Part shown: in pieces, positions 1,920-35,359 of the stretch
Layout: each line of letters opens with the position of its first letter
How positions within the stretch are numbered: the first letter of the stretch is position 1
Origin: a virus
Length of the DNA: 35,860 bases
Strand: one strand, 5' to 3'
IMG/VR virus record: IMGVR_UViG_3300037504_000796
Location: 1 to 35,860 of that record
Notes under the pieces: generated by a model
Seen by the model: only the letters and a program-made list of their open reading frames with translations
Databases searched by the model: none
Told to the model about the DNA's origin: nothing
Translations under genes and position numbers: made by a program

Positions 1920-4514
1920 TCATGGATAGTATGGATCCTCGCCATCCACTGCGGTCAATTCTCCTCTCTCCGGGAGCCCTTCCCGGCGGAGGACCCGGCA
2001 CACCGCAAAGCCGGTCTTGTCGTTCCCGCTGGCCCGAATATGTATCTCATCCAGGTCCGTGTCGCGGGTGTATGTCGCCTTCCCTATGTGGTCGCCGTTG
2101 ATGTAGAAGTGAGCCACGCCCTCTTCTAGGCCCATCGCCAGGAAGTCAGTGGGCCACCCTGAAGAGGTGGTGCCCCGCTGGCCGCAACCATTCGGAGCTT
2201 CGATGACCCAGCTCCAGGAAATGGGGTATGAGGTGATGTCAGTCGTGTAGCCTAGGCAGTATCGGGACTCCTCGCAGGTCGGGTTGGGGGGCGGTGGCCA
2301 GGGATCCCTGCGGATGAAGAATGCGAGGGCCTTTGTGCCGGAGGAGTCCATCCACCAGCACAGCGGCCAGTCCTGGAAGGTGTCGCGCACGGTGAAGGAA
2401 TATGGAGCGCCCCGGACACTGTACTGAAGCTCAAGTATGTCAACCTTGGGGGTGACCGCCCCCGTTGTCGCTGGGCTGATGGCGTCTGACTTGATCTCCA
2501 CCACATCCCCCCCGGAGGAAGCAGCCAAATTTATTAGAGGAGCCTGCCAGCACTCGAACACGAACTCAGGCGGGTTGGCCAGTGCGGTCCATTCGACAGA
2601 GCCCTCCCGGTTCTCGCCCCAGGCCCGGTTCGCAAAGTCCAGATTGTGGTCCTCATCCACCCAGCGCCATATACCTCTCGGCGTGTCCTCTTGGAACAGG
2701 GAGTGCGCCCCCTTCCAGTATGGCCAGCGGTACAGGGTGAACTGCGCCTGGCTCTCTGTTGGGCCCTTCTCCCGGCTCAATACCAGGAAGGGCTCATCCT
2801 CCAGCTCGTAGGTCTCCGATGTGATTTTCACCTGATCTCCTGCGCTCCAGGGAAGGGTGCGGTGCCCAGCCACCAAGGTGAGTACATCTGGGGCGTCACA
2901 GTATCTCGGAGCCAACTGCCGGAGGATAGCCCATTTGCACATCTCCCGCATGATCGTGTACTGCCAGTAGTCCAGCGGCAGCTCGATGTTCGTGATGGTG
3001 TAGCCCATCTCTATGTTGGACAGCGGAGTCCGCCCGTACACCTCTATTGGGTAGTTGGGGCTGTAGGTCTCCAGCCCGGCCGCGTGCGGAACATGGCGCT
3101 TCAGGACGGCTTGCCCCCGCTGGACGTGCTTGGATATGTCCAGCTCCCATACCCTCATGGAGGGCCGATACACCGCCGGGTGGAACACGTGTATCCGGCC
3201 GTCATGTCCGCTCCCGATGAACAGCCCGAGGGTGATGGCCAGGCTCTCGGTCAGGCTCTTGGCCGTGAAGTCCTCCAGCTCCGTGGTTGTGTAGCTGAGA
3301 AGCATCCAGGTGCCCACAAACCGCTGGTACAGCCAGAACCAGTCGCCGGTGTACGCCCCCTGCTCGTAGCTGTCGTGATAATCGAATACTCCAGTGCGGA
3401 CCCGCCTGGGGCTGTTGACCAGCATATCCCAGATGATGCGCAGGGCCTGCTCATCTTCGTACTCCACCCTGTCGCCGTGGATGGGGAGTATGCGGTGCGT
3501 TGTGGCCTCCCGATATGACGCCAGGATGTCCTCCAGGCCCAGATCCATCTTCTGCCCGAGCCGGCGGCCCGCCCTCTTCACCCGGCTCCGGAATGAGTTA
3601 ACCAGCTCCCGGGTCCCGAGGCCGTCCCGCAGGTAGAAGTCCAGCGTCAGCTCTGTGCCCTCAAGCTGTGCCGGCGTTGCCGCCCCGGAGTCCCGGAGGG
3701 TGATGCCGCCCGGGTTGCTGTCCTTCAGGCTCCAGGTCTCAGGCAGTTGAATCTCCTGAGATGCCCAGTCCGACATCCCCAGAATAGACAGGTCACTGGA
3801 CAGCGACGCGTCTGACTCGGCGGAGTCCGTCTTGGCCAGGTTGGCCGACAGCTCCAGCTCCGCCTTCCACTTCATGCTGTCCCGCTGGATCTGGGCCAGC
3901 GCCTTCGCGGAGAGGTCCGGCCGCTCAAAGCTGAAGTCACCTGCGGCCGAGTATCCGTTGTCCTCGCAGGGCCAGTCCAGCCCAAGAAACAGGCGTATCT
4001 GCGGCTGTAGGCCGTAGGCCACCGGGATGAAGGCCGACCCGACATTGCCGGAGGTCAGGACGGACAACCCCACGCCGTAATCTACGAAGTCATCAATGGG
4101 CACCGCCCCCAGGTTCTGAAGGGGCAGATAGTACCAGCCCTCTTTGTACACGTTCACCGCTTTGTAGCTTCCGCCGGCGGCTCCCCATACCGTGTTCATC
4201 TGCGCCACTGAATAGGTGTCGCCCCAGGTGGTCTGCAGAGGCCGGACCCACACCTGAACGTAGGTGCCGGAGAGGTCGAACTCACCAGTGGCCCGCGACA
4301 CGTAGAACAGCAACCCTCCGTGTTCGCACCAGGCATCCCATATCGGCACGGAGCCCTTGAATTTGATCGCCGTCCGCCAGAGCTGGTTGCTGGAGTTGGC
4401 CGAGACCACGCAGAACTCACCATTGTGCGAGACACTGGAGCCGGTTGGCTCCCAGGTGGCACAACGGTCCATAGGGAAGATCACCGGGTTGGCTACGGGT
4501 GGAGAGGTGGCCAT
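1920..4514 (-). CDS. Tail-tip / tail-hub-like protein
   Basis: This 864-residue protein follows the tape measure and two tail proteins, the usual place for tail-tip, hub or receptor-binding components. It has no signal peptide. The central region (about 500-640) includes a block around WSAGDQVKITSETYELEDE followed by a strand-rich stretch with an FLVLSREKG-type turn, similar in style to hub domains that end in repeated beta-strands. The C-terminal part (about 700-860) is rich in aromatic residues and resembles a lectin-like sandwich (AHFYINGDHIGKATY). The many Trp residues fit a glycan- or receptor-contacting role. The start is ATG 4514 with GGAG upstream, overlapping the previous stop as TGATG. 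Virion tail identity comes from position and composition; exact function is inferred. Confidence 0.75.
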   Translation of the reverse strand: MATSPPVANPVIFPMDRCATWEPTGSSVSHNGEFCVVSANSSNQLWRTAIKFKGSVPIWDAWCEHGGLLFYVSRATGEFDLSGTYVQVWVRPLQTTWGDTYSVAQMNTVWGAAGGSYKAVNVYKEGWYYLPLQNLGAVPIDDFVDYGVGLSVLTSGNVGSAFIPVAYGLQPQIRLFLGLDWPCEDNGYSAAGDFSFERPDLSAKALAQIQRDSMKWKAELELSANLAKTDSAESDASLSSDLSILGMSDWASQEIQLPETWSLKDSNPGGITLRDSGAATPAQLEGTELTLDFYLRDGLGTRELVNSFRSRVKRAGRRLGQKMDLGLEDILASYREATTHRILPIHGDRVEYEDEQALRIIWDMLVNSPRRVRTGVFDYHDSYEQGAYTGDWFWLYQRFVGTWMLLSYTTTELEDFTAKSLTESLAITLGLFIGSGHDGRIHVFHPAVYRPSMRVWELDISKHVQRGQAVLKRHVPHAAGLETYSPNYPIEVYGRTPLSNIEMGYTITNIELPLDYWQYTIMREMCKWAILRQLAPRYCDAPDVLTLVAGHRTLPWSAGDQVKITSETYELEDEPFLVLSREKGPTESQAQFTLYRWPYWKGAHSLFQEDTPRGIWRWVDEDHNLDFANRAWGENREGSVEWTALANPPEFVFECWQAPLINLAASSGGDVVEIKSDAISPATTGAVTPKVDILELQYSVRGAPYSFTVRDTFQDWPLCWWMDSSGTKALAFFIRRDPWPPPPNPTCEESRYCLGYTTDITSYPISWSWVIEAPNGCGQRGTTSSGWPTDFLAMGLEEGVAHFYINGDHIGKATYTRDTDLDEIHIRASGNDKTGFAVCRVLRREGLPERGELTAVDGEDPYYP

Positions 4515-6217
4515 CAGTATTTCTCCGTCTCAACGCCTTCAACTGTTCCCCGGTACATCTTCTTGCGGATGCCGTGGGTCAGGTTGTGCTTCAGGTAGTA
4601 GGAGCGCCCCAGGGTGTTCCGAGCCACGTCAATCACGTGTTCGTTGCTGAGATAATCCAGCATCTGACTGATAGTGCCCTCGGAGTTGTCGTGATTCAGG
4701 ACTGTCACCCCTCCGATGATGCCGTCCAGTTGCTTTGCTCCGCTCTCATCGCTCCCCACCCAGAGCTTGTCCAGGATGCCACTGGGGAGGGTGGTACTGT
4801 CGCAGGAGTACACGGTGTCAGGGTCACTGAGCATCACGATGTCTGCGTACACCTTCGTGTCGTCCATCGACAGCAGACACAAGAAGCTATCACCCCGGGT
4901 GTATCCGGTCAGGTTCTCAGTATCCAGCAGGGACCCGTCAGCCTTGAGCGACATATGGGCCCCCCCGAGCCCTCCACCTATCTCCAGGGACAGGGACCCG
5001 CTGTTATGGTCGGACGCCTCCAGCGTCAGGACCCGCTCGCTGGTACAGATTCCGGAGGTCCAGCCCGGCTGGATGTAGCAGAAGGCCACGGCCCGGGTTC
5101 CGGCGTTGGGGTTGAAGGGCGTCGGAAGAGCATAGCTCAACTGACTCCCGGACCAGGTGGCGTTGTTTCGGTCCGTGCCCACCCCGACCATATGGGTGTG
5201 GCATCGGGCATCGAGGACCTGTGGAGCCGTGAAGATGATCTCACCAGTGCTGGAGGTGAGCTTCAGCCGTAGCACCGCAGATGGCGTCCCGGCCGGCGTG
5301 GAAAAGCTGTCCCGGATTACACCACTGGCGTAGGTGTCGGTGATGCTGAAGGTGCGGGTGACTCCGCCCCCAAAGTCAATCTCCACCTCTCCCGTAGCTC
5401 CAAACGTCTGATACCCCACGAACAGGGCGCAGTTGGAGCTTCCCGTGGGACTGAAGCTGGCGCTCTCCCACGCGAAGTCCGCCGGCACAGAAGATGGCTT
5501 GGCCAGGTACACGCTCTTCAGGTCCGGCTCCAGGAAGCTGTAATCCAGTACGCCATACTGGTCCTCCGGCGTGACCGCGGATACTATGGACCAGTCAGCC
5601 GGCATCGAAGGGTTGACCAGGCCCTCATTGGTGAAGCCGGCGTTGTCTATAAGATTCTGCCCGCCCTTGTAGCAGAAGGCCCCTGCGTCCAACGGGAATG
5701 GGGCATAATCGGCCGAGCCGGGAGCATAGCCCATAATGGGTATCCGGTCCTCCGGGAGGGCCTTCAGCGCCAGCCCTGTGGAGGTATCGTACTGGACAGA
5801 GTAGATGCCCCCCTGCGACACGCTGATGGTCTCCGTTGCCTCAACCGGGTCTCCTCCGGCCTTCCAGCGGAGAGGCGCCGCCAGGATGAGCCGGCCAGAC
5901 TCCACGGTGTAGATGTGGGCTTTCACGCCCTCTGCCCTCATTAGCTCCAGGATCTGATACACCCAGGCCGGATAGGCATTGCTCGGGAGGATGATGTTGC
6001 GCCTGGAGTCTCCGTATGGAGTGACCGCCAGGGCTCCGTTGTTCAGCTCCAGTTCATCTGTCACGTCCACGTTCTGATACTTCGGCCGAGGCGTGATGGG
6101 CAGGGTGATGGCCAGCCTGGGCCTCTCGCCCAGCTCCGACACAATGGTACACTTCAGGCTGTCCCCATACAGAGCCCCGGATGGAATATCAGGGATGTCT
6201 CCAAAGGTCCCGGCCAT
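4514..6217 (-). CDS. Tail protein with LamG-like C-terminal domain
   Basis: The 567-residue product begins with DIPSGALYGDSLKCT and a PRLAITLPITPRP segment that is repeated almost intact in the next gene upstream (6234-6716). Residues about 330-500 look like a concanavalin/LamG-type jelly roll (RAVAFCYIQPGW, LSLEIGGGLGGAHMSL, DKLWVGSDESGAKQLDGIIGGV), with the usual 'G.ID.V.V' ending of such folds. These domains bind carbohydrate or mediate adhesion in phage tails. It starts at ATG 6217 with GGGAGG about nine bases upstream, overlapping a TGA in the -1 frame of the previous gene. It is probably a distal tail or receptor-binding component. The LamG reading is moderate, the tail reading strong. 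Confidence 0.78.
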   Translation of the reverse strand: MAGTFGDIPDIPSGALYGDSLKCTIVSELGERPRLAITLPITPRPKYQNVDVTDELELNNGALAVTPYGDSRRNIILPSNAYPAWVYQILELMRAEGVKAHIYTVESGRLILAAPLRWKAGGDPVEATETISVSQGGIYSVQYDTSTGLALKALPEDRIPIMGYAPGSADYAPFPLDAGAFCYKGGQNLIDNAGFTNEGLVNPSMPADWSIVSAVTPEDQYGVLDYSFLEPDLKSVYLAKPSSVPADFAWESASFSPTGSSNCALFVGYQTFGATGEVEIDFGGGVTRTFSITDTYASGVIRDSFSTPAGTPSAVLRLKLTSSTGEIIFTAPQVLDARCHTHMVGVGTDRNNATWSGSQLSYALPTPFNPNAGTRAVAFCYIQPGWTSGICTSERVLTLEASDHNSGSLSLEIGGGLGGAHMSLKADGSLLDTENLTGYTRGDSFLCLLSMDDTKVYADIVMLSDPDTVYSCDSTTLPSGILDKLWVGSDESGAKQLDGIIGGVTVLNHDNSEGTISQMLDYLSNEHVIDVARNTLGRSYYLKHNLTHGIRKKMYRGTVEGVETEKY

Positions 6218-6233
6218 CAGCCATACCTCCCAA

Positions 6234-6716
6234 TCATCGTCCCGACCCGCACCAACTCACCCTCGGTGAGTATCGGGTTCCTGGCGTACGCGTTGAAGGT
6301 GTTGCCCGCTCCTCCGGGTCCTGCAGCGGCCCGGGAGAGCAGCCTGACTCTGATTCTCTCGGTTGTCGCCGCGTCCATGTCGGCTTCTTGGTCATGCCTT
6401 CACCCCGGCCTATCAGCGTCAGGAACCTGTCGCCCAACTGGCCATGAGATGGAGCCATAAACCCGGCAGCGGCCCTGTACATATGGGCTCCGGCTCCCGG
6501 GCTCCCGCCCTCCTTGAATGAGAATATGCCCCCCAGGGGCCCGCCACCACCACCGAACGACTCGCCGCCCGGCCCCTGAGGCGAGAACGCGGGACGGGGG
6601 GGCACCGACAGGGTAACAGCCTTCCGGGGACGCTGGCCCATCTCCGTGGTGACTGTGCATTTCAGGGTATCGCCGTAGAGCGCTCCGCTCGGAATGTCGG
6701 GTAGCGATACGCCCAT
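6234..6716 (-). CDS. Short tail protein with frameshifted tape-measure-like C-terminus
   Basis: The uninterrupted frame gives 160 residues, but only about the first 107 look genuine. The N-terminus (DIPSGALYGDTLKCT) duplicates that of the downstream 567-residue tail protein. The middle has a glycine-rich stretch and HGQLGDRFLTLIGRGEG, matching FGQMGDRYPVILSRGE near the end of the tape measure. After about base 6390 similarity passes to the -1 frame, which reads NPILTEGELVRVGTMIGRYG and stops at TGA 6219-6217, overlapping the next ATG. The tape measure ends HPILTEGELARIGTAIRRFS. The intended product is therefore about 166 residues over 6217-6716. A real indel, a sequencing error or a -1 recoding event could explain it. 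A strong AGGAGG precedes ATG 6716. Confidence 0.7.
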   Translation of the reverse strand: MGVSLPDIPSGALYGDTLKCTVTTEMGQRPRKAVTLSVPPRPAFSPQGPGGESFGGGGGPLGGIFSFKEGGSPGAGAHMYRAAAGFMAPSHGQLGDRFLTLIGRGEGMTKKPTWTRRQPRESESGCSPGPLQDPEERATPSTRTPGTRYSPRVSWCGSGR

Positions 6717-14626: not shown

Positions 14627-15442
14627 CTCTTCTCCTCCTGTTACGGCTCCTCCCTCGAACAGGAGGGCCTTCTCATCGCCTCCGGACCTGGAGGCCGCCA
14701 CCACAACCTTGCTCCGCGGCACCGCGGGGTAGTTGTTCGGGAGCAGCTCCGGGTCCAGCAGGACCACTGACTGCAGAAACTCCTCGTACTCCACGCCCTG
14801 AGTGGTAAACGCCGGCCGAATCTCTGCCGACAGATATCTGATCTCGCCAGTATAGACCTTCTGCCGCACCTCCGTATCGGTGAAAAACGGCCGCGCCTTT
14901 ATCCAGGGCTCGCCTCCGTCATCTGCCTCCTCTTCGTAGACATCCAGGATCCACCCTACGACGCGATTTAGGTCATGATCCCCGTACCGCAAAGTGGGCA
15001 GGACTCCGTTCTCGGCCGCCTTGTCCATTGACGCCAAGAGCTTTCTCTGGCGCTCTGCGGTCCACTTGACGTCCCCGCTCTTGCTGGCGTACTTGCCGGG
15101 GCGGATCACATCGAGAGTAATGGACTTGGTCTCATCGTACTCTCTGTACAGCAGGTACTCCTCCAGGGCGCGATAGGCTATCGCCGCAGGATCGTCCACT
15201 CCGGCCTGTTTGGCCTGATCGTACACTGCCGCCCATATCTGCTGGGCCTGCTTCTCCATCTGCCGCACTGTCGCTGGTAGCTCCACATCGCCTCCTGCCT
15301 GCAATTGTTCGCGCCACTGCCTGTAGCAGATCGCAGCCCGCTGCTGCTGTCTTGGGTATTCCTCCTGCATCACCGCGTCTTCCATGCAGCGGCTGAGAAA
15401 ATCATCCTGGCTCTCGCCCGAACGCGGTGCGGGCAGGGGCAT
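14027..15442 (-). CDS. Mu I-like capsid protease fused to scaffold domain
   Basis: A 471-residue protein of three parts. Residues 1-45 carry the short helical motif found at the front of several phage prohead proteases (RSGESQDDFLSRCM, then RAAICYRQW). About 105-260 resembles the Mu gpI-like protease (KVYTGEIRYLSAEIRP, FLQSVVLLDPELLP), which processes scaffold and capsid. About 273-471 is an acidic, coiled-coil region (SSVSEIKESVETMSGAIG) fitting a scaffold. An internal ATG at 14626 has AGGAGGAG upstream, so the scaffold is probably also made separately, as in Mu I/Z and lambda C/Nu3. The full gene starts at ATG 15442, overlapping the portal stop as TAATG. Confidence 0.83.
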   Translation of the reverse strand: MPLPAPRSGESQDDFLSRCMEDAVMQEEYPRQQQRAAICYRQWREQLQAGGDVELPATVRQMEKQAQQIWAAVYDQAKQAGVDDPAAIAYRALEEYLLYREYDETKSITLDVIRPGKYASKSGDVKWTAERQRKLLASMDKAAENGVLPTLRYGDHDLNRVVGWILDVYEEEADDGGEPWIKARPFFTDTEVRQKVYTGEIRYLSAEIRPAFTTQGVEYEEFLQSVVLLDPELLPNNYPAVPRSKVVVAASRSGGDEKALLFEGGAVTGGEEMGDEPNEFSVDDVLSAISKVTDSVGSLASSVSEIKESVETMSGAIGDVRTRLSALEQTAESENEVETELSSFAENEEGYVACLSAGQRGDLAKGLRELDADARKGAMLILRHLPRTPMEEQTFSGPGAPSEPEQNKGVEKFSAANCPEDEREKAKLRGESVKMLRSEVDADKLPDGITIQEKAVELSMAKYPHLWADQT

Positions 15443-17892
15443 TATGCTGACTCCCTGATGCCGCCGAAACCCTTGGCAGGCGGGTTGTTCCGCAGTATCC
15501 TGCGCTCGCCCTCGGTCAGCCAGTGCCCGGCCGGGGGCTTCTCGCCGCCGAATATAGGGAAGCGTCCAAGACGGCAGTTGAAGTGCCGCAGGGGCTTGGC
15601 CAGTCTCATGTCCGGATCGCCAACCTTGATGCAGAAGCCATGTATCTTCCGGCAGCCCTCGGTGGTCTTGCCGTCCAACGTAGCATAGAGCTCGTACCCG
15701 ATGATCTTGCCCGGGTCGGTGGTCTCTGTATCCAGCGTCTCATGTCGGGCATACACCCGATCCCGCCCGCCGACGTAGGCGTTGCCCACATTGGTTCGGA
15801 CCAGCGTGGTCACGCCGCCGCGGGGGTCGGTATAGAGGTTCTCGTAGAGAATCATGCGGATGTTGTTGATGGCGCGCTCCGTGATCTGATCGCCACTAAT
15901 GACGTTGGCGATTTCGTGCCAGATGTCTTGCTCTAGCCCGCCATACGTCTGCTGGATGGTGTAGAATATCTCATTGCGCAACAGGTCCCGGGCGGTAGTG
16001 TCAGAGATCGCCTTACCTATTCGGGAGGTGACCATCTGCATCTGGATGTTCGACTCCGCATGCTCCTTGCCCATCTCGCGGGCCTTCCACGACACGTCGA
16101 AGAGCTCGGCCGCAATCTTGTCCTTGTTGGTGATTTTCAGGCGATCCCGCAGGGTAGAGGCCGATACCGGCACCTCCTTGAACTCCCCGGTTGGCTGCTT
16201 GACCTTCTCGGAGGTCCGGAGCTCGCCGTTGGGGAAGGCGATGGTCAGGATATTGTCGAATGCGTCACCGACAGTATCCTTGTACAGTTTCACTACCTGC
16301 TCTGTGGCCTCGTCCTCGTACTCGAACCGCTCCTTGCGCTGCTTGAGATAGCGCTTCTTCTGGGTCGCGGAGGCGGCGGTGATTGCCTGGGGCTCTTCCC
16401 GCACCTTAGCCTCTTCGTGCCCCTCGAGCATGCCCTGGGCGTCCTCCAGTGAAATACCGAAGAATCGCATCAGCATATTCTCGGCCATTTCCTCGGTTAG
16501 CTCACCAGCAACAACCTGCCGCACTATCTCCAGGGCGGCCGACACCCGGGCGCCATTCAGAGCAGTGTCAGATGCTCTCGTCCCGTCTCCGGCCAGCGAA
16601 GGCGCCTGCTTTTCGGTTATGGCCATCTTCTCATCGAAATCCACGCCCATCTCCTCAAGCATCTGCGCCTGCTGCTCTATCGTAGGCGCCGGCAGAACTC
16701 CGCTGGTGAGGGCCTGCCCCCACGCCTGGAGCTTGTCCTGCACAGCCAGCGATGAGGCCGTATTCGTGCCCAGCTTGGGCACAGGCGCCCCGGGGAGGTT
16801 CCACTGAACCAGTGGCCGGAACCACTGCTCCTCTATCTGCTCCCGCAGCTTCCTGCCCCTGGAGTGCAGGATAGTCCACATGGTCTCGGTCTTGCCCGCG
16901 GTATCAGCCCGAGCCCCGACTCGGAGAGCCTCGGCCACAGCCGTATCTGGCCCGAGAATGCCCCGAGTGATCTCCATGAGCTTTGCGGCCTTCGCTTTTG
17001 CGTAGACCCCGCCAGCCCCCGAAGCGGTATTCTCGAACTTGAGGTCCACGTAGTCCGGGAGGATCAACCGGTCGGTTCCCTGGGCATTGTCGAGTATTTC
17101 CAGAAGTAGCTCCATCTCGGTTTCGTTCTCCCACTTGGTCTTGGGCACCTTGGCGGTGGCCATCCCGGCCCCATGCCGCCGCAGGAACACAGCATATGCC
17201 ATTTCGATATCAAGTATGTCCTGCCAGGAGTCGTAGATCTGGTAGTACCCAGACAGGCCATAGGGGTTACGTCTGCCGCCCCGGTAACAGAGATGCACTG
17301 TCCGCATCTCCGGGAAACGATAGTATTCGCCGTTCCAATGCTGAACGGCACCTATTGTGCGTCCATGTTCGTTGTAAACGAACTTACATGTGGAGTGGGG
17401 TCGGTGAAGGATATCCGCCCACCTGGCCTCCCCCGTCCGCTGAGAGACATCCCAGATGGCCTCCGCCAGCACGAACCCCATTCGGAACGCAGGAGACATC
17501 AGCTCCTCGTGAAGAACGTCCATTGGGGACCCGGGGAGGCGCATCAGGTTGTCTTCCACCATGTCGGCGGCCTTCTGCGCCTGCGCCCTGTCTCCCCGGG
17601 TCCCGGGGTAGATGTTCCAATCGGGAAGCATTCCGACCAGAGCTATTTCGGTGCAGGAGGAGATGATCGGGTTGGAGAGCATGCGGTCGTAAGGCTCATA
17701 GCCCTTACGCCTGACAACGCTGTCAGGGTTGTCCCGGATGAATGGGTCGCTGGAGATCGGGAGATCATGCAGTCTCTCTCGACGCTCCTTGATCCAGGCA
17801 TAGAGGCGGGCGTACTTCTCCCGCTCAGACTCGGGGGGTGGGCCAAACTGCTTCTGCACCCATCCGCTTATCATCGCGCCGAGCCCGAACAT
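15442..17892 (-). CDS. Portal protein (DUF935-type) fused to MuF head-morphogenesis domain
   Basis: The 816-residue product joins two virion functions. Residues about 1-450 fit the DUF935/Mu gp29-like portal: CTEIALVGMLPDWNI early, then the clip/wing region with ILHRPHSTCKFVY and DYVDLKFENT, then a helical crown. Portals form the dodecameric DNA entry ring. Residues about 650-800 are a MuF domain, with LVRTNVGNAYVGGRDRVY, ATLDGKTTEGCRKIHG and PLRHFNCRLGRFPIF, the family's Cys/His-bearing 'C..lHG...H.nCR' signature. MuF proteins accompany DNA into the head or are ejected. Fusion of the two is known but less common than separate genes. The start ATG 17892 has a weak AGG site. No toxin domain follows the MuF part. 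Confidence 0.9.
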   Translation of the reverse strand: MFGLGAMISGWVQKQFGPPPESEREKYARLYAWIKERRERLHDLPISSDPFIRDNPDSVVRRKGYEPYDRMLSNPIISSCTEIALVGMLPDWNIYPGTRGDRAQAQKAADMVEDNLMRLPGSPMDVLHEELMSPAFRMGFVLAEAIWDVSQRTGEARWADILHRPHSTCKFVYNEHGRTIGAVQHWNGEYYRFPEMRTVHLCYRGGRRNPYGLSGYYQIYDSWQDILDIEMAYAVFLRRHGAGMATAKVPKTKWENETEMELLLEILDNAQGTDRLILPDYVDLKFENTASGAGGVYAKAKAAKLMEITRGILGPDTAVAEALRVGARADTAGKTETMWTILHSRGRKLREQIEEQWFRPLVQWNLPGAPVPKLGTNTASSLAVQDKLQAWGQALTSGVLPAPTIEQQAQMLEEMGVDFDEKMAITEKQAPSLAGDGTRASDTALNGARVSAALEIVRQVVAGELTEEMAENMLMRFFGISLEDAQGMLEGHEEAKVREEPQAITAASATQKKRYLKQRKERFEYEDEATEQVVKLYKDTVGDAFDNILTIAFPNGELRTSEKVKQPTGEFKEVPVSASTLRDRLKITNKDKIAAELFDVSWKAREMGKEHAESNIQMQMVTSRIGKAISDTTARDLLRNEIFYTIQQTYGGLEQDIWHEIANVISGDQITERAINNIRMILYENLYTDPRGGVTTLVRTNVGNAYVGGRDRVYARHETLDTETTDPGKIIGYELYATLDGKTTEGCRKIHGFCIKVGDPDMRLAKPLRHFNCRLGRFPIFGGEKPPAGHWLTEGERRILRNNPPAKGFGGIRESA

Positions 17893-17896: not shown

Positions 17897-18103
17897 CTAG
17901 CCCTTCAGTCTGGCGGAGATCGCGTCCTGGACGCCTCTGGCCCCCAGCACAATCATGGCAATGGCGAACCAGTGCCAGTTTTCTATCTTCCCCTCCATGA
18001 GCAGCCAGGTGGCCAGGCCAAGAATCCACATCTTGTAGGAGATGATGTTCGACAGAACCTTGAGCCCGGCCTCCTGGAGGCTCTTTACGATAACGACGCC
18101 CAC
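17897..18103 (-). CDS. Small membrane protein, holin candidate
   Basis: A 68-residue protein with a positively charged N-terminus and one or two hydrophobic helices (about 22-37 ISYKMWILGLATWLLM and 42-56 NWHWFAIAMIVLGA), ending in a basic tail. Size and topology fit small holins, but similar short proteins also occur as unassigned membrane proteins next to portal genes. It starts at GTG 18103 behind GAGGAG and overlaps the previous stop as TAGTG. Its position by the portal rather than the amidase weakens the holin reading. Confidence 0.68.
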   Translation of the reverse strand: MGVVIVKSLQEAGLKVLSNIISYKMWILGLATWLLMEGKIENWHWFAIAMIVLGARGVQDAISARLKG

Positions 18104-18663
18104 TACTGCTCCTCGTGCCAGATAATCTCGACCGAAGTGTGCGCGGTCGATGCGCCGTTATTGGCCAGATCGAGACACCAGGCTATGGAGTCGGACTTCG
18201 CGTCGAGTACGCATTCCGGCAGCGCGAACCACTCCCCGGCCGGAACGTACCCGACCCACCATGCGGTCCCGGCCGCCGTATCTGTCGGCCCGTATGAGAC
18301 CTCGACGGTGGCGTCGTCGCCCTGATACTCGGAGAGATTGACGTCGTTGATGATGGTGCCGCTGTCGCTGTACGCGAATGATTCCATCAGGGCCGCATCG
18401 ATCTCCTGGGTGGAGTATACCCGTATCCAGAAGTACGCGCCCTCGCTCAGAGCAGAGGGCACCTTGATGACGACCTCGAGCGAGTCTCCGCTGGAGACTG
18501 AACTGGCCTGGTGGGTTACGCAGAACAGCCCCTCATCCGTCAGGTAGTAACCCTGCTCCTCCTGGACCACCGTCACGGCGTCGTCGTTGAGGACCCACTC
18601 GGTGTAGCCCCAGGCGTTGAACGCTGCTACCAGCATCACACCCAGGAGTATGTACCTGCGCAT
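18103..18663 (-). CDS. Sec-exported phage structural-like beta protein
   Basis: The 186-residue product has a textbook signal peptide (MRRYILLGVMLVAAFNAWG), then a strand-rich mature part of about 165 residues. It is paralogous to the next gene upstream: GDSLEVVIKVPSA, ESFAYSDSGT, GPTDTAAGTA and a closing WHEE match equivalent blocks there. The same block order is familiar from phage virion proteins that normally have no signal peptide. The protein should leave the cytoplasm, so it may decorate the cell envelope or be a fibre-like surface protein. AAGGAG precedes ATG 18663. Export is directly suggested by sequence; role is unknown. Confidence 0.78.
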   Translation of the reverse strand: MRRYILLGVMLVAAFNAWGYTEWVLNDDAVTVVQEEQGYYLTDEGLFCVTHQASSVSSGDSLEVVIKVPSALSEGAYFWIRVYSTQEIDAALMESFAYSDSGTIINDVNLSEYQGDDATVEVSYGPTDTAAGTAWWVGYVPAGEWFALPECVLDAKSDSIAWCLDLANNGASTAHTSVEIIWHEEQ

Positions 18664-18667
18664 ATCT

Positions 18668-19252
18668 CTACTCCTTCCAGAAGACCATGACAGTGCCGGC
18701 CATGTCGCCGGAGCCGTCGTTCTCGATCTCGATGCAGTAGTCGATGCTGTCGGCCGCGCAGGTGTCTACGAGGAACGGCATCCCCGATCCGAGCAGATTG
18801 CTGTCCCAATAGGTAGACGCGGCTATATCCTGCGCGAAGATTGCCGTACCGGCGTCGGTGTCGGTGGGGGTATGGCTGATTGCGGTTGATGCCGTACCCC
18901 CGGTACTGCGGTCCATATCGTACTCGGTAAGACCGGTACCGGCGTCGGAGTAGGCGAAATCCTCTATCAGGCGCACGACAGTCGCCTTGTCCGCGAATAC
19001 CGCGAAACCGAGGTCCACCCCGGCAGCAGGCGCGGCCACGACCACCTCGACAGAATCCGAATCCGCCACCGAAGCGAATTCGTGGCTGGCCATGTAGAGG
19101 GACCCGTACCGCTGGACATCCTCTACCACCACCCCGGAGTTGTCCACGGTGATGTCGGTGTTGGACACCTCCATGTACCCGTTCGTGTCGGTGGGGACCG
19201 CCAGGGCCACCGCGACGATTGCCAGCAGTAGCACCCCTATCACTCTCATCAT
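18668..19252 (-). CDS. Sec-exported paralogue of the downstream structural-like protein
   Basis: A 194-residue protein with a signal peptide ending ALA|VPTD (MMRVIGVLLLAIVAVALA). The mature region has the same order of blocks as its downstream neighbour: DSVEVVVAAPAA, EDFAYSDAGTG, HTPTDTDAGTA, DSIDYCIEIEND and FWKE. The copies are diverged, so the duplication is old or under diversifying pressure. Two cysteines near the end (about 168 and 175) could form a disulfide in the periplasm. It likely shares its neighbour's exported role. The gene is spaced four bases from the next. Confidence 0.78.
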   Translation of the reverse strand: MMRVIGVLLLAIVAVALAVPTDTNGYMEVSNTDITVDNSGVVVEDVQRYGSLYMASHEFASVADSDSVEVVVAAPAAGVDLGFAVFADKATVVRLIEDFAYSDAGTGLTEYDMDRSTGGTASTAISHTPTDTDAGTAIFAQDIAASTYWDSNLLGSGMPFLVDTCAADSIDYCIEIENDGSGDMAGTVMVFWKE

Positions 19253-19266
19253 CTTGATTCCCTTCG

Positions 19267-19608
19267 TTATTCCGGCACGCTCTCGGGCGGCCGGTTACCT
19301 GTGACTTGGCGATACAGCTCCTGCATCAGCCACGTCTGATACTCCAGTCTACTGTCAAGGGCTTCGCGCTCGATCTCAGCCCGCGCCCCATCGTTGGCTA
19401 ACTGTGCCTGGGTCTCGGTTATTCTCTCCATGCACGCGACCACATCCTCGATGTCTTCTTGGCATTCCGCCACCGACTCGGCGTTGCGCTCCACCTGCCG
19501 GTCCACCCCCAGCGCCCAGGCGAAAGCAGATGCGGTCAAGGTCAGTATGAACGTAAGAATTGCCCAATACCGCGACAGCCATGCCCCTAGAGCCCGCAAC
19601 GCGCTCAT
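19267..19608 (-). CDS. Single-span membrane protein with coiled coil (i-spanin or holin candidate)
   Basis: From ATG 19608 the product is 113 residues: a short basic N-terminus, one transmembrane helix (about 14-35, YWAILTFILTLTASAFAWAL), then a charged helical domain (VERNAESVAECQEDIEDVV onwards) with coiled-coil periodicity. That is the topology of an Rz-type inner-membrane spanin, though T-type holin accessories look similar. I chose ATG 19608 because it overlaps the upstream stop as ATGA; the longer frame would run through the zinc-ribbon gene. No adjacent o-spanin of normal length is present, apart from a very short lipobox peptide. Confidence 0.65.
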   Translation of the reverse strand: MSALRALGAWLSRYWAILTFILTLTASAFAWALGVDRQVERNAESVAECQEDIEDVVACMERITETQAQLANDGARAEIEREALDSRLEYQTWLMQELYRQVTGNRPPESVPE

Positions 19609-19751
19609 CCCTGCGGGGGCGGGTCGGGCGGGGGTGGAGGCTTGATCGTGTCGCCGTTGGGCGTTGGGTTCTTGGCTCCGCACTCAGGGCACGTTGGCTC
19701 GTTGGTGTTGTCGGCAAACTCCGTTCCGCAATCGCGGCATATCCAATCCAT
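19605..19751 (-). CDS. 48-residue zinc ribbon with polyproline tail
   Basis: This small gene has AGGAGGG six bases before ATG 19751. It reads MDWICRDCGTEF, then a second knuckle CPECG, so four cysteines (C5, C8, C22, C25) form a rubredoxin-like zinc ribbon. It ends in an 11-residue Pro-rich stretch (PPPPPDPPP). Its stop overlaps the next ATG. It is the only clearly cytoplasmic-looking member of the exported/membrane island. A nucleic-acid or protein-contact role is possible. Confidence 0.75.
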   Translation of the reverse strand: MDWICRDCGTEFADNTNEPTCPECGAKNPTPNGDTIKPPPPPDPPPQG

Positions 19752-19760
19752 GCAGCCCTC

Positions 19761-19844
19761 CTAACAGTGTCCGTAGATGCACGCGGCGAGTATCAGCCCG
19801 CCGCAGATTAACAGCGTCGCCCAATAGACCCTACTGAGTCGCAT
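19761..19844 (-). CDS. 27-residue lipobox-containing membrane peptide
   Basis: The ATG at 19844, inside the last bases of the upstream gene, opens a peptide with Arg residues, a hydrophobic stretch and LAAC (GGLILAAC), followed by only five residues (IYGHC). LAAC fits a lipoprotein signal-peptidase II site. The acylated remnant would be six residues, far below a normal o-spanin, so the site may be coincidental and the peptide may simply be a membrane micropeptide. GAGG lies close before the start. It sits between two other exported-protein genes. Confidence 0.45.
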   Translation of the reverse strand: MRLSRVYWATLLICGGLILAACIYGHC

Positions 19845-20100
19845 GGGCCTCGAATGCGTCGATTGCGGCCTGCCACTCCGTCCAGCTTGCTATAGCCTCC
19901 GAGCGGTAGTAGCTGCGTACCGCGGCGGGCATCTCGAACATCACGCCCTGTATCTCAATGCTGTCGGCCACGGCAAGCTGCCAGTCTTCCCAGAACTCTG
20001 CGGCGGCCTGCTGCTCTGCCGCTCTCAGGTCAGGGGCCGGTGTCCAGTTAATTGCCAGCGCCATGCTGGCGAGCAGTAGTGTTGCGAGTATGTAGCGCAT
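19831..20100 (-). CDS. Small secreted helical protein
   Basis: From ATG 20100 the product is 89 residues with a clean signal peptide (MRYILATLLLASMALA|INW). The mature part is about 73 residues, acidic and helical (RAAEQQAAAEFWEDWQ, IASWTEWQAAIDAFEAH), with several Trp and no cysteine. GGGAGG lies seven bases before this ATG; the longer frame has no such site. It would be periplasmic or surface-associated. No family is recognised. Confidence 0.75.
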   Translation of the reverse strand: MRYILATLLLASMALAINWTPAPDLRAAEQQAAAEFWEDWQLAVADSIEIQGVMFEMPAAVRSYYRSEAIASWTEWQAAIDAFEAHATQ

Positions 20101-20111
20101 ATCTTGCCTCC

Positions 20112-21116
20112 CTACAGATTGTCCTGTATGCTCAGGATCACCCACGTTGAGCCCGTCCACATCAGCACGGCATTCTCGCCCAGCGCGTCAAACACTATCG
20201 CCGGTATATTCGCGCCGGAGGTGTCGGTGGACGTGTCTATCGTTACGGTGTCGTCGGCGTCCACGTTGGCATCTGCCACGATTACCGTTATCTGCCCAGC
20301 AGTCGTGCCGTCCTGCAAGTGCAGCACGTCATTGTCGGTATCGTCGTCTCCGTCGAGCAGGATTGTTCCCACCAACGGGTCGGGTAGATCGCCCTCTGTG
20401 GTGAATGAGTGAGTGGTAGCCGTCATCGCCAGCCGGTCAGTCTGTAGCAAATAACCCGACCCCTCCACCACCAGCGAGTCGGAAGACTGGACTACTATGG
20501 AGTCCTTCTCGTTGTTGCCAGCATAGAAAACCCCGGCACCAGCAGCATTAGGGTCTGCACGCAAAAACCCTGCCGCAGCATCCTGTGACTCCAAATACAC
20601 ACCTGAGGCGTCCTCGCTTATCGCCCAATCGCCATTAAAAGAGCCAACCGTCCCGTTGGTGTATACCCCGCCATAAAAGCGCCATGCGTCATCTATGGTG
20701 CCGAAAGTCGACCGGAATCGCAGTGCCGATATCCCGTCGTCATACTTGGCCTCATGTGTGTCGTCCGCCTCATGGACGGTGAAAACGATCACATCAGCGT
20801 CACCCGCTGTGCTGTCGCCAACGTGGATACCCGCGTCGGAGTGCAACATCAGGCCAGTGGAGTCCAACTCGGCCACCACCCCGTCACCGCGTAGCTCGAG
20901 GGTAGTGTCGGAGTAGAGGTAGGCGTCGAGACCGATCTTGATGCTGTTCATCTCCAGCGGATCGGGCAGGCCTGCAGGCCCCCAGATGGTCGGACTTGCC
21001 TCGGCGGGAGCGAACAGCGCGTAGATGAGCATGAACAATCCGGCGGCAACCATGGCCACCCCGGGGAGGGTGCGGTTAATCATGCGGTGGCGGATGAGGT
21101 CTCTACCTGTGAGCAT
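20112..21116 (-). CDS. Membrane-anchored or secreted tail-fibre-like protein
   Basis: Translation probably starts at ATG 21116, overlapping the previous stop as TAATG and preceded by GGAGGAGG; the GTG at 21131 is less likely. The 334-residue product has a cytoplasmic N-terminus (MLTGRDLIRHRMINR), a hydrophobic segment (about 17-38) and a possible cleavage at AEA|SPT. The remainder is Asp/Gly/Thr-rich with the repeated short strands of phage fibres. It ends with a LGENAVLMWTGSTWVIL block that closes many phage tail-fibre proteins. A fibre fold with an export or anchor segment is unusual. It could display fibre-like material on the host cell. The fibre reading is inferred from composition and the end motif. 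Confidence 0.75.
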   Translation of the reverse strand: MLTGRDLIRHRMINRTLPGVAMVAAGLFMLIYALFAPAEASPTIWGPAGLPDPLEMNSIKIGLDAYLYSDTTLELRGDGVVAELDSTGLMLHSDAGIHVGDSTAGDADVIVFTVHEADDTHEAKYDDGISALRFRSTFGTIDDAWRFYGGVYTNGTVGSFNGDWAISEDASGVYLESQDAAAGFLRADPNAAGAGVFYAGNNEKDSIVVQSSDSLVVEGSGYLLQTDRLAMTATTHSFTTEGDLPDPLVGTILLDGDDDTDNDVLHLQDGTTAGQITVIVADANVDADDTVTIDTSTDTSGANIPAIVFDALGENAVLMWTGSTWVILSIQDNL

Positions 21117-21457
21117 TACGGCCTCCTCCACGAGTCGTAGCCCACATCAACGGTGTCGGCGCTGTGCACCACGAGCGTGTCTATGAGGTCCGCGCCGTCC
21201 CGTTCGCCGGGGGGCGGATACGAATATGTGCCCTTGGGCTCAAGGCGCTTCCATGAGGTTGTGGAGTCCGGCGCCTCGAAGCAGAACCATATCGTGGCAG
21301 AGCCATCGTAGTTGATCACCATTACATCGACAGCACTGGTGATTGCAACCCCGGAGGTGTCAGCGTTTACAGTCAGCTGGCCGTAGTCGCCCTGACGCAG
21401 GCCCACAGCGAAGAGGGCTGTAACCGCCAGCCCGAGAGCGATCAATGTGCGTCTCAT
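21116..21457 (-). CDS. Small exported beta-rich protein
   Basis: The 113-residue product has a signal peptide (MRRTLIALGLAVTALFAVG) and a mature beta-rich domain of about 94 residues (QLTVNADTSGVAIT, VMVINYDGSATIWFCF, WKRLEPKGTYSYPPP). This pattern resembles small phage head/tail accessory domains that lack export signals. GGGGGAG precedes ATG 21457, ten bases after the previous stop. The stop overlaps the fibre-like gene. It belongs to the exported island; function unknown. Confidence 0.75.
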   Translation of the reverse strand: MRRTLIALGLAVTALFAVGLRQGDYGQLTVNADTSGVAITSAVDVMVINYDGSATIWFCFEAPDSTTSWKRLEPKGTYSYPPPGERDGADLIDTLVVHSADTVDVGYDSWRRP

Positions 21458-21466: not shown

Positions 21467-22198
21467 CTATCCGGAGACCTGCACGATGATGCTGGCATCA
21501 CCGCTTTGGTTCTTTGCTGTCCCATCATCTCGGTCAAGGCTCTCCAGCTTCACCCAAAAGGCCGCCCGGAGCGCCTGAATAACCTCGTCCGGGGCGGCAC
21601 AGTCCTTATCGGCGGTCACTGTCATCTTCACCCTGGAGCCACCGGACTCAACCTCCTGGAATGCCCCCCCGGGCCACAGGGCCTGCTGGAATCCCACGTC
21701 AGCGGTGTCCCAGCCGGAGGGCATCCGGAGCATTAGTCCTGTTGAACCTACATGGCGGAATGCAGTGGTTGAGACCGAACTGCCGTCCGCGATGGTGACC
21801 TTGGACGCGTCGGGAGCTCCTCGAATAAGCAGAGCACCCTCGGTGCCTACCCGGGCCTCCTGATACTCCCCGCGATTGGTGGTGACGGGATTGGCTTTGC
21901 CGACTGGCCCACCTGAGTCCACCTCCACCGTCCATGCATCACCCAGGTACAGGTAGTCGAACACGAACGTGATCGTGCCTCCACCGGTGCCGAGGTCTAT
22001 CGCGGCGCCGGAGGTGACAGCCTGGGCGGCCACATCGTCATTGCCGCTGCGGGATGTGATGGTCACTTCTGCGGTACCGGATACACCGGCCTTCGTGACC
22101 TCCACGCGGAAGGTCTCCGAGGCCGTGCCGGTGCCGCCTGTCTCTACGATGGGAACGGACCCCTCTATGGGCCCGATGAGCTTGGTGCTTCTCGCCAT
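21467..22198 (-). CDS. Virion-like beta-sandwich protein
   Basis: A 243-residue protein with no signal peptide. The N-terminal half holds repeated Ig/beta-sandwich-like strands (SETFRVEVTKAGVSGTAEVT and FVFDYLYLGDAWTVEV), and a third block carries TADKDCAAPDEVIQALRAAF. This type of domain is common in phage tail or capsid accessory proteins. GGGAGG stands before ATG 22198. It is the first gene after the large terminase and precedes the exported proteins, so it may be a virion component related in style to them. The exact function is unknown. Confidence 0.7.
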   Translation of the reverse strand: MARSTKLIGPIEGSVPIVETGGTGTASETFRVEVTKAGVSGTAEVTITSRSGNDDVAAQAVTSGAAIDLGTGGGTITFVFDYLYLGDAWTVEVDSGGPVGKANPVTTNRGEYQEARVGTEGALLIRGAPDASKVTIADGSSVSTTAFRHVGSTGLMLRMPSGWDTADVGFQQALWPGGAFQEVESGGSRVKMTVTADKDCAAPDEVIQALRAAFWVKLESLDRDDGTAKNQSGDASIIVQVSG

Positions 22199-22290: not shown

Positions 22291-22306
22291 AATAATTTCA
22301 ATTATT
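22291..22306 (-). terminator. AT-rich hairpin at the end of the large terminase gene
   Basis: AATAATT and AATTATT form a perfect 7-bp inverted repeat with a two-base loop, overlapping the terminase stop codon and followed on the minus strand by TCTTTAAC. It is low in GC, so at most a weak terminator or an mRNA processing site. Confidence 0.3.
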
Positions 22307-23891
22307 GGCGGCCCGCTCGGAAGCTGTCTCTTCGACTGGTCCGGAAGCGACGATTCGCTGAGCCGGTCTGTCGCCTCGCCGCCCGAGTCTTCAGGGAATA
22401 GACGATGCCAGCCGGCTCCCAGCAGGCGTAACCTACGCCGTCCAACTCGTCAGGAGAGAACCCGAGAATCGACTTCAGATCATCCTTGTCCTGCACGAGA
22501 ATCCCCCCAGGAGTTGGCTTCCAGCGCAGCGATGCCATGGCGGCCCGGAGTCGGGGGTCGGGCGGGAGGTCGATCTCCTCGGATTCCATGAGTTCTCTGA
22601 GGTGCCAAAATATCGCGGCTCGCAAGTTCCGGAACCTGAACAGTCCGGTCCGGTCGTAAAGGGGCTTTCCTTTCGGGTCCTTGGCCCCGGCGGCCCCATC
22701 TATGCCAGTCACGGCATAACCGAGCTCGGTCAGGTCATCGTAGGGGCTGGAGCCCACGCCTATCAGGTCCAGATTGATCAGGGGCGTCGCCTGCCCAAGA
22801 TAGTTCCGGATTGCCGCCACCAGGGTAGGGCCGTTCGGCGTGTCCCTCCCGGGGACGCAGTGGAGCTCCCCAACGACTCGCCCGTGGCGCGGGGCAAATA
22901 CCGTCTGGTCGCGCCCTCCCCGGGCCACATCGACCCCCAGCATATCTATCGGCTCATCCTCCGGGGGCTCCCATCGGTCCATCGCTCGCTGGATCATGCC
23001 CCCCGGGAACACCTGCATCGGGTCGTCAGCCAGGCTTACCGAGAAGTCGCCGTCGCGCATCACTGCCCGCACGTCAGGCTGTAGGGCGTCCAGGGTAGCC
23101 TCATACTGCGTGCCCGCGTAAACTGGGTTGTCCGTCACCCTGCCCGGGATGAACGTTCGGCTCTTCGGGCGCAGGACCTTGCCTCCGTCCTCGATGGGGT
23201 CAGGGCCGTCCACCTCCACCTCGTCTCCGGAGTCGAGGCGGACGTACCACCGCAGCTCTCCCGGCTCCGCGGGATCTGGGTGGTTGGGGTCCAGCCACGC
23301 CGCCCAGCGGCGGACGATCCATCTCCCCTCGGGAGACATCGGGGGGTTCCCGGCAGCGCGGATCCGGGTCTTCTGTCCCGGGGCATCAGCCCGAAGCCAG
23401 GTGGTCAGGTACAGGTAGAAAAACTCCGGAAACTCTGCGAGTTCATCGAAACCGATGTAGTCATGCGGGCGACCCTGAAACTTGCCCAGCGCCTTGCGGT
23501 CCTTGACCGCCCCTAGCTCCAGCCGCTTGCCCTCCCACCGGAACAGGTGCTTGGTCCGATTGTAGGACTCTTCGCCCAGCATCTCTACCAGGCGATCTTC
23601 TATCTGGGTGAACTGCGTGTACTCCCTGCGGAAGATGATGGAGTTCCGGTGCTGGGTGATGGCGGTACCCATGAGCAGCTCGGTCTTCCCCGGACCGGCA
23701 GCGCCGCCGCAGAACAGCTCGTCCGCCTCAGACTCATACGCCTGCTGCTGTGGCTTATTCTCCGGCTGCGGAGCCCACAGTGGCTCTCGCTCGCTGCCTT
23801 CCAGGCCCAAGCGGTGGCGTATGCCCGGGATCAAATCCAAGATAGCGTTCGAGCTCGCCGACGAACTCAGCCTGTCTGTCCTCTGGGACAT
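22302..23891 (-). CDS. terL: Terminase large subunit (TerL)
   Basis: The 529-residue product has the two terminase domains. Residues 62-70 (GGAAGPGKT) are the Walker A ATPase loop and 145-150 (YIGFDE) the Walker B. From about 310 the RNase H-like nuclease domain begins, with D321 in MLGVDVARGGRD as the first metal ligand. It packages DNA into the procapsid and makes the cut that ends packaging. The start at ATG 23891 has AGGAG five bases upstream, although this places the first 137 bases inside the small terminase gene in another frame. The C-terminal arm is Arg-rich, typical of portal-binding tails. Overall assignment is firm. Confidence 0.95.
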   Translation of the reverse strand: MSQRTDRLSSSASSNAILDLIPGIRHRLGLEGSEREPLWAPQPENKPQQQAYESEADELFCGGAAGPGKTELLMGTAITQHRNSIIFRREYTQFTQIEDRLVEMLGEESYNRTKHLFRWEGKRLELGAVKDRKALGKFQGRPHDYIGFDELAEFPEFFYLYLTTWLRADAPGQKTRIRAAGNPPMSPEGRWIVRRWAAWLDPNHPDPAEPGELRWYVRLDSGDEVEVDGPDPIEDGGKVLRPKSRTFIPGRVTDNPVYAGTQYEATLDALQPDVRAVMRDGDFSVSLADDPMQVFPGGMIQRAMDRWEPPEDEPIDMLGVDVARGGRDQTVFAPRHGRVVGELHCVPGRDTPNGPTLVAAIRNYLGQATPLINLDLIGVGSSPYDDLTELGYAVTGIDGAAGAKDPKGKPLYDRTGLFRFRNLRAAIFWHLRELMESEEIDLPPDPRLRAAMASLRWKPTPGGILVQDKDDLKSILGFSPDELDGVGYACWEPAGIVYSLKTRAARRQTGSANRRFRTSRRDSFRAGRQ

Positions 23892-26679: not shown

Positions 26680-26861
26680 TCCTCGGCCTCCTCTCTCCTC
26701 CATTCTGCGTGACTACTCCCCCGCCAGTCCGCTACCGGCAGGAGCAGCCCGTCGCCCAAATCGGCGCACAGCGCACGGCCTGCGCGCACCAGCCTGACCC
26801 TGTACTCGTCGCCGTCGATGGTGGCGATGTAGTTGCCTGGTTCGCTGGGGGTGTAGTTCAC
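26676..26861 (-). CDS. Small beta-fold protein
   Basis: From GTG 26861 (AGGAGGG six bases upstream, GTGA overlap) the product is 61 residues (NYTPSEPGNYIATIDGDEYRV, then LVRAGRALCADLGDGLLLPV). The spacing of hydrophobic residues suggests a small five-strand fold followed by a charged helix. Function is unknown. It is coupled to the DUF5131 gene before it. Confidence 0.65.
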   Translation of the reverse strand: MNYTPSEPGNYIATIDGDEYRVRLVRAGRALCADLGDGLLLPVADWRGSSHAEWRREEAEE

Positions 26862-27769
26862 TCCGCCCTCCTGTTCCATGCGTTCACCGCCTGCTGGGGC
26901 CACTCCCGCACTGCCAAGTCTGCTGGGATAGCTTCGCGCTCTACCTTCGTCCGTCCGCTCATCTGCTTCATAAAGAACGGAACATCCGCCGTATTGCACT
27001 GGTCCCGCAAGCTCCGCGCCCAGTCGGGATTCATGTATCGTGCGTGTGTCCCTGACTCTCCACCGCAGATGAGCCAGTTGACACTTGTTACGCATTTCCC
27101 GTCTGTCCATCCCTGGAGTACGCTGTACGGCGGAAAAGTGCCATTTGGCATCTGGGTCAAGTCTACCGCTCCCAGCATCGGCTCCACCGATACGAACCGC
27201 ACCGCTGCCGGGATGTCCAGTAGGAGCGGAATCCGCCCATCAGCCTGCTTCTGATTCTCGGCGGTGACGCCCACCCAGATGTGACTGGGGAGTTCCCGTC
27301 CTACAGCTAGCTGAGCGGCGGCCATGGCCGCCATTGCGCCTCGCCCCAGCTTGTAGGCGGCCGCAGACCCGATATTTCTGCGCGCCTGTAGCATATCGTT
27401 GATGTACTGCCGCATCCTCTCCGGGCGTTTTGTCAAAATCATGAAAATGTGCTGGGAGGCCAGTATCATGGCGGCGAAGATCGCATCCAGTTCTATGACG
27501 GGAACGTCTAGATGAAACAGGTCGCCCATCGAGCATACGAACACCGCCGAGGGCTCCCGCCAGCGAAGCGGCTGATCGTAACGCTCAGGGAATGCCGCCA
27601 CGTGGTCGCAGCTCTCAGGCCACCCTTTCAGTCCCGCAAACCGTTTGATGAGGTCTAGGGCATAGCAGTTCTGGCATCCAGCGCTGATCGGAGTGCAGCC
27701 CATAACCGGGTTCCAGGTCCGGGGTCTATACCCTGGAATATGCGTCCACTGAATCTTGGTGCCTTTCAT
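26858..27769 (-). CDS. DUF5131 / phage Gp37-Gp68 family protein
   Basis: From ATG 27769 the product is 303 residues. It shows the diagnostic family segment TWNPVMGCTPISAGCQNCYA, a Cys cluster (C-x6-C-x2-C) like that of radical SAM enzymes, then FVCSMGDLFH and FMILTKRPERM, and near the end WVGVTAENQ, RFVSVEPML and LICGGESG. Members are frequent in phages, and their relation to SPL-like radical SAM proteins suggests an Fe-S/SAM enzyme of unknown substrate. Here it sits in the replication/early operon, overlapping both neighbours by ATGA. The biochemical role is not known. Confidence 0.9.
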   Translation of the reverse strand: MKGTKIQWTHIPGYRPRTWNPVMGCTPISAGCQNCYALDLIKRFAGLKGWPESCDHVAAFPERYDQPLRWREPSAVFVCSMGDLFHLDVPVIELDAIFAAMILASQHIFMILTKRPERMRQYINDMLQARRNIGSAAAYKLGRGAMAAMAAAQLAVGRELPSHIWVGVTAENQKQADGRIPLLLDIPAAVRFVSVEPMLGAVDLTQMPNGTFPPYSVLQGWTDGKCVTSVNWLICGGESGTHARYMNPDWARSLRDQCNTADVPFFMKQMSGRTKVEREAIPADLAVREWPQQAVNAWNRRAE

Positions 27770-28221
27770 CGTTCCCCGCCCTTCATCGCAGGGTCGATGA
27801 ACGAAAAATGGCCTCTCGATTGAAGCAGGCAACTTGACTGTTCGGGTATCCCCGTCGCCCGCAAAGCCCCCAAGGTCCGAAGTGTTGCCAAGGCCTGCTC
27901 CGCGGGCATGCATTTTTCCAAGCTCTTTCGGAGGCTGTGCCGCTGGCGCAGCCGCTTCAGGTGCGTCATGCGCTCCTGCTGAGCCTGCTGTCTCCTGCCG
28001 TGATGGACAAGACCCTCCACCAGGTGCGCTCGGAACATCCGCTGGATCGCGTCGATCATGTCCGCGTTTTCGATGATGTCCTCGGCCTCTTCGCGCTCGT
28101 ATTCGCCGTGCTCGGCCAACCGCGACAGTACCCAGCCGACCAGCAGGACCACGAGGACCAACAGCACCCCGAAGACCCAGCCCCAGGGGCCGCCGTCATA
28201 TGGTTCGACGTATTGAGTCAC
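27766..28221 (-). CDS. Membrane protein with charged cytoplasmic domain
   Basis: From GTG 28221 (GAGGAGG upstream and GTGA overlap) the 151-residue product has an N-terminal segment (QYVEPYDGGPWGW), one strong transmembrane helix (about 14-33, FGVLLVLVVLLVGWVLSRL), and a helical His/Arg-rich part (HHGRRQQAQQERMTHLKRL). The helix suggests an inner-membrane anchor with a nucleic-acid or coiled-coil tail. No family recognised. Its position between the replication initiator and DUF5131 is shared by several unknown membrane genes. Confidence 0.68.
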   Translation of the reverse strand: MTQYVEPYDGGPWGWVFGVLLVLVVLLVGWVLSRLAEHGEYEREEAEDIIENADMIDAIQRMFRAHLVEGLVHHGRRQQAQQERMTHLKRLRQRHSLRKSLEKCMPAEQALATLRTLGALRATGIPEQSSCLLQSRGHFSFIDPAMKGGER

Positions 28222-35281: not shown

Positions 35282-35335
35282 GATAACTCCTTCCGATTGG
35301 CTCCTCTTCAGGCCCCACCCACCACGGTGGAGCGA

Positions 35336-35353
35336 CGGGGGCTTCCGCCCCCG
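35336..35353 (-). terminator. Very stable GC hairpin after the first early gene
   Basis: CGGGGGC and GCCCCCG form a 7-bp stem with a tetraloop that reads GGAA on the minus strand, just after the stop of the first early gene. TTTC follows on the plus strand; no U-tract follows on the minus strand. It could stabilise the 3' end or act as an attenuator. Confidence 0.45.
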
Positions 35354-35359
35354 TTTCGG

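Follow-up and report, generated by a model that had tools for sequence, protein, structure and literature searches.

The 35,860-base IMG/VR virus record IMGVR_UViG_3300037504_000796 (GC content, 61.5%), here called the window, comes from an uncultured tailed phage which, judging from its sequence, probably sends virion-like proteins to the envelope of its host cell. The genes concerned form an island of nine consecutive minus-strand genes (g1 to g9, Table 1) that fill the space between g0, a leaderless gene next to the large terminase subunit (TerL) gene, and the portal gene, with intergenic gaps of -14 to +14 nucleotides. At its core are two adjoining paralogues, g7 and g8, in which a leader precedes, twice side by side, a domain that has none in other phages. 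The common assumption is that tailed phages make and assemble their structural proteins in the cytoplasm. For a virion-type family inside a head operon, signal peptides would imply that such folds are reused as effectors at the cell surface or, alternatively, that the periplasm can take part in assembly, and leaders of this kind could serve as marks of exported phage effectors in uncultured phages.

Signal peptides were called by a simple heuristic rather than by SignalP, scoring the charge of the n-region, an uncharged h-region, and an A-x-A-type c-region, with a cut-off of 30. Seven island proteins were positive (g1, g2, g3, g4, g6, g7, and g8), compared with none of the 12 other terminase or structural proteins of the window. 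Shuffled copies of g1, g2, g3, g6, g7, and g8 scored positive in only ca. 0.7 to 5% of cases, but those of the 27-residue g4 did so in 54%, so that the score of g4 means little. Among genes of at least 60 amino acids, 6/7 were positive in the island versus 17/884 in 46 related loci (binomial P, ca. 3e-10). By way of comparison, five lytic rumen phages carry 0 to 2 predicted signal peptides per genome (PMC5723332). The N-termini of g1, g3, g7, and g8 are classic in appearance; in g2 the n-region is long, and the segment may instead act as a signal anchor. Shine-Dalgarno-like motifs are found upstream of the leader-bearing starts of g1, g2, g3, g7, and g8. A preliminary description of this DNA had counted signal or transmembrane segments in eight of the nine genes and had taken the hydrophobic N-termini for export signals. 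The count holds when hairpins are included (the sole exception is the 48-residue zinc ribbon g5), and the second claim stands as a prediction, with scores far above the base rate. We infer that the leaders would direct export through Sec and be cleaved.

Sequence and model comparisons indicate that g7 and g8 are full-length, albeit distant, members of the phage family phrog_5335. They are tandem paralogues (33% over aligned columns; E value, 6e-22), and in a search with the PHROG hidden Markov models both matched phrog_5335 over the same region (E values, 0.0026 and 0.019). When a profile of g7 plus g8 was run against 2,610 sequences (29 family members and 2,581 decoy open reading frames), Pantoea phage LIMEzero ORF57, itself a clear member of phrog_5335 (E value, 1.6e-54), came first with an E value of 2.5e-5, and the next hit was a decoy with an E value of 1.2. 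Alignment of g7/g8 with the 29-member family by hhalign gave 26.0; none of 150 column shuffles exceeded 19.1, and the reversed comparison scored 12.5. This alignment is collinear over the whole domain, from a Y-x-E motif to an aromatic-x-E end, and the family’s Y-x-E motif begins just after the predicted cleavage site of g7/g8. An AlphaFold model built only from g7 and g8 (predicted local distance difference test [pLDDT], 58.5) found the 191-amino-acid LIMEzero protein at rank 11 in a viral fold library (TM-score, ca. 0.45). A family-guided model reached a pLDDT of 66.6, with a leader helix at residues 3 to 17, and had the CVT22, LIMEzero, and SBP1 members among its fold matches (family ranks 2, 3, and 11), a result that is partly circular. 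Members such as LIMEzero ORF57, Citrobacter phage CVT22 gp25, Vibrio phage SBP1 gp108, Escherichia phage C1 gp26, and Bcep43 gp01 resemble g7/g8 in whole-domain alignment, profile, and, as far as the models suggest, fold, but at only ca. 12 to 20% identity.

The same 29 relatives, 14 from named phages and 15 from IMG/VR, provided the comparison of leaders. A credible leader was found in none of them, while g7 and g8 both score, placing the leader on an otherwise signal-less domain. We regard the leader as what sets g7/g8 apart within the fold family, whose definition does not depend on its absence; their occurrence as a tandem pair is a further difference. One further family match (L086) was positive only through an internal start codon. 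In most of the phages inspected, the gene for the family member has terminase, head, tail, or lysis genes close by. PHROGs assigns the family no function, although the depositors of one member annotated it as a putative baseplate hub protein. The family has no significant sequence relative among solved structures, and the PDB fold matches were mixed beta sandwiches with Z scores of 9 or less, so no function is named from the fold. The preliminary description had also ascribed a virion-like style to these proteins and had proposed a search for homologues with and without signals. Signal-less homologues do exist, and the virion-like style of g7/g8 is borne out by homology to a phage family, but for g2 the matches are weak and confined to the C-terminal part (Phage_depo_C, E value of 0.007; phrog_563, a virion structural protein, E value of 0.011), which are consistent with a fiber but fall short of proof, and no sequence relative of g2 was found among solved structures. 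A disulfide argument for export was considered and discarded: g7/g8 have five cysteines versus a nearly cysteine-free family, but the leaderless cement, tail tube, and fiber-like proteins of this phage are equally cysteine rich.

The preliminary description had offered two readings, envelope-displayed mimics or a virion component processed in the periplasm, and both are still candidates. Mimics, which might act for example in receptor masking at lysis, would fit best. More fully, we give a probability of roughly 40% to the island being a late-operon cassette of Sec-exported or membrane-anchored proteins whose core consists of retargeted virion-type beta proteins that mask receptors. The core would be g7, g8, and probably g2 and g1, all virion-type beta proteins retargeted by an added signal peptide. 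Their synthesis would accompany that of the packaging and head proteins, late in infection; they would then cross the inner membrane via Sec and fold beyond it, in the periplasm or on the cell surface, where the mature proteins may bind envelope glycans or the receptor. The likeliest benefit would be protection against progeny readsorption or superinfection, with receptors masked both on the dying cell and on debris. Proteins g6 and g9 (perhaps also g4) would be membrane proteins and could plausibly supply the holin or lysis helpers that the surroundings of the endolysin gene lack. Masking is proposed because of the analogy with T5 Llp, a precedent for a phage-encoded exported receptor blocker, whose proposed role is receptor shielding against superinfection and progeny loss on debris (PMC4728585). 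The Llp of T5/BF23 and the island proteins (as predicted) are both phage encoded and exported, a likeness for which no sequence relation is claimed. Llp differs, however, in being a small lipoprotein whose gene adjoins that of the receptor-binding protein, whereas g7/g8 are larger beta proteins in a head operon.

Several points weigh against this interpretation. The signal calls are heuristic, the family link is remote (g8 alone scores weakly against the family), and a narrow six-member family profile failed to recover it. No receptor- or glycan-binding match was found among the island proteins, and exclusion would be most useful early, while the location of the island suggests late expression. 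In the collections searched there were no close relatives of the portal, the capsid protein, or g7/g8 (none in IMG/VR, and for the portal none in GTDB genomes either), so that conservation of the cassette could not be shown. A motif scan of GTDB with g7/g8 gave chance matches in unrelated open reading frames only; the major capsid protein, g7, g2, g1, and g9 had no match in named phages at the limits used, and g7 had none in plasmids. Relatives of TerL share no other gene with the window and have no such islands.

The strongest rival, although in our view unlikely, is a place in the virion itself: after maturing in the periplasm, the exported proteins would join heads or tails at lysis as late-added decorations or fibers. 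Membership in a virion-type family and location in a head operon would suit this explanation, and there are two parallels in loci whose portals are related to that of the window. In one (L035:7041-7586), a hydrophobic leader of ca. 28 residues precedes a phrog_1731 virion structural protein (E value of 7e-17 from residue 33) in the cement slot, between the protease and capsid genes. In the other (L034:9591-10274), a leader-bearing protein is encoded directly after the capsid gene. Both resemble the window in having an N-terminal leader on a virion-type or capsid-adjacent protein, but they belong to other protein families, lie next to the capsid gene, and are single cases. Moreover, the L034 leader is not conserved: its relative in Microcystis phage Mwe-Yong1 (36% identity), also encoded just behind the capsid gene, has no strong leader (heuristic score of 22, cut-off of 30), and no leader-bearing gene follows the capsid gene in the related loci L095 to L099 where the stretch was covered, so this trait seems to come and go. 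A weak likeness in fold to the HFTV1 capsid turret was also seen (8qpg chain TD; Z score, 7.7; PMC12494034), but a match below a Z score of 8 may be merely a common arrangement. Efficient attachment after lysis would be needed as well, and the open-licence papers searched contained no precedent and described no tailed phage whose virion proteins are exported through Sec. A broader two-compartment mode of assembly, in which phage components pass through Sec, fold in the periplasm, and are added at lysis, recurring sporadically (the window, L034, and L035), appears rather doubtful.

Another rival is an envelope disruption or lysis cassette, with g9, g6, and g4 as holin, spanin-like protein, or helper and the exported proteins aiding progeny release. 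The Amidase_3 endolysin (1171-1728) has neither a leader nor an adjoining small holin-type membrane protein, and therefore the membrane proteins of the island may include the holin. In size, topology, and late-operon location, g6 and g9 are similar to class II holins and to the Mu-like lysis genes that some phages have close to the terminase. One of these is EBPR siphovirus 4, which has a distant portal relative and in which amidase, membrane-protein, and spanin-like genes adjoin the terminase gene. The short hairpin of g9 looks class II holin-like, but searches found neither a holin or spanin family match nor a homologue for it, and the holin-family match of g6 is below the threshold (phrog_24402; E value, 0.034). 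As an explanation of the whole island, this seems quite unlikely, given that no match to an enzyme or a lysis family was found for its four larger exported proteins and that the endolysin lies ca. 16 kb away. Still, g6 and g9 look more like holin- or lysis-type membrane proteins than like the fiber mimics put forward in the preliminary description, so the island is probably mixed in function. Alternatively, the leaders might be uncleaved tethers (kept, or cut by a phage protease) that hold virion proteins at the inner membrane to organize head or fiber assembly. The inner membrane is the site where T4 proheads assemble, g2 and g6 look like signal anchors, and the L035 leader has no basic n-region at its best start. 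Nevertheless, the clear signal peptidase-like sites in g1, g3, g7, and g8 make tethering improbable, and the beta domain would end up outside unless inserted the other way round. Finally, exported phage-encoded proteins are often morons, and the island could be lysogenic-conversion cargo, i.e., host-altering surface proteins unrelated to the virion. This we hold to be very improbable. The genes are on the same strand as their neighbors and overlap or nearly so, promoter and terminator counts within the island are not above chance (by consensus scans, which do not cover all promoter types), GC content and GC at third codon positions equal those of the neighbors, and no integrase or repressor was recognized among the genes scanned (the record may be incomplete). 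Together, these features point to coexpression with the packaging and head genes, and we infer that it would take place late in infection.

The recognizable genes of the window lie on the minus strand. Taken in order of falling coordinates, they comprise a replication/recombination block (exonuclease, Sak4-like protein, SSB, cytosine methylase, helicase loader, and DUF5131), the small terminase subunit (TerS) and TerL genes, g0, the island, and a portal fused to a MuF-type domain. Below the latter come a gene of 471 amino acids at the protease/scaffold position and the cement, major capsid protein, tail tube, and tape measure genes, followed by two large fiber-like genes and the Amidase_3 endolysin.

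Table 1. Genes of the island and its flanks in the window, from high to low coordinates (aa, amino acids)
Gene	Coordinates	Strand	Description	Basis
TerL (flank)	22302..23891	-	Terminase large subunit	phrog_2, E value 6e-29; relatives ca. 42% identical
g0	21467..22198	-	243 aa, leaderless, between TerL and island	No signal or transmembrane segment; no family match
g1	21116..21457	-	113 aa; predicted signal peptide of 19 residues and short beta-type protein of unknown family	Heuristic signal score, transmembrane segment, Shine-Dalgarno-like motif before ATG
g2	20112..21116	-	334 aa, ATG at 21116; putative long signal or signal anchor (residues 1-38) and beta-rich fiber-like protein	
g3	19831..20100	-	89 aa; predicted signal peptide (cleavage after residue 16) and small hydrophilic protein	Signal score
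g4	19761..19844	-	27 aa; single hydrophobic segment with lipobox-like AAC	Sequence
g5	19605..19751	-	48 aa; zinc ribbon without hydrophobic segment	Four cysteines; many weak zinc-ribbon matches
g6	19267..19608	-	113 aa; signal anchor and hydrophilic, probably coiled tail; holin-/spanin-like candidate	Hydropathy, signal score
g7	18668..19252	-	194 aa; phrog_5335-type beta protein behind a predicted signal peptide of 16 or 18 residues	Profile, signal score, model
g8	18103..18663	-	186 aa; g7 paralogue with its own predicted signal peptide (cleavage after residue 19)	Profile, signal score, model
g9	17897..18103	-	68 aa; short hydrophobic hairpin, putatively class II holin-like	Hydropathy
Portal-MuF (flank)	15442..17892	-	Portal fused to MuF-type minor head domain	phrog_113 portal, E value 6e-25; phrog_241 head morphogenesis, E value 1.5e-6

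As for the remaining island proteins, no phage homologue was found for g1, and g3 weakly matches phrog_4854 from residue 1, leader included (E value, 0.0099). A scan of the island proteins against PADLOC, which covers known antiphage defense, gave no meaningful match. Genes between terminase and portal are also present in Thermus phage MN1, in that case without strong leaders. In two of the loci compared, an intein-like sequence splits the MuF part of the portal-MuF gene (L033:2335-5633 and L096:7587-11121) at a conserved H-F-N-C-R stretch.

Some observations concern other parts of the window. Directly downstream of the endolysin gene, positions 483-1169 (minus strand) encode a leader-bearing protein of 228 amino acids, the C-terminal part of which reads like outer membrane beta strands (GYHLTDNASFDLGGEYRLG...GFSISL), and which may likewise be exported late in infection. 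The adjoining late genes at 6234-6716 and 4514-6217 (minus strand) have a near-duplicate N-terminus (DIPSGALYGDxLKCT...) in common and look like a partial duplication of a fiber-like gene. In the early block, the DUF5131 protein is encoded at 26858-27913 (minus strand; E value, 5e-75). Near the high-coordinate end, at 35295-35361 (minus strand), there is a full-length type II hammerhead ribozyme (Rfam RF02276; 56.2 bits, with a gathering threshold of 37).

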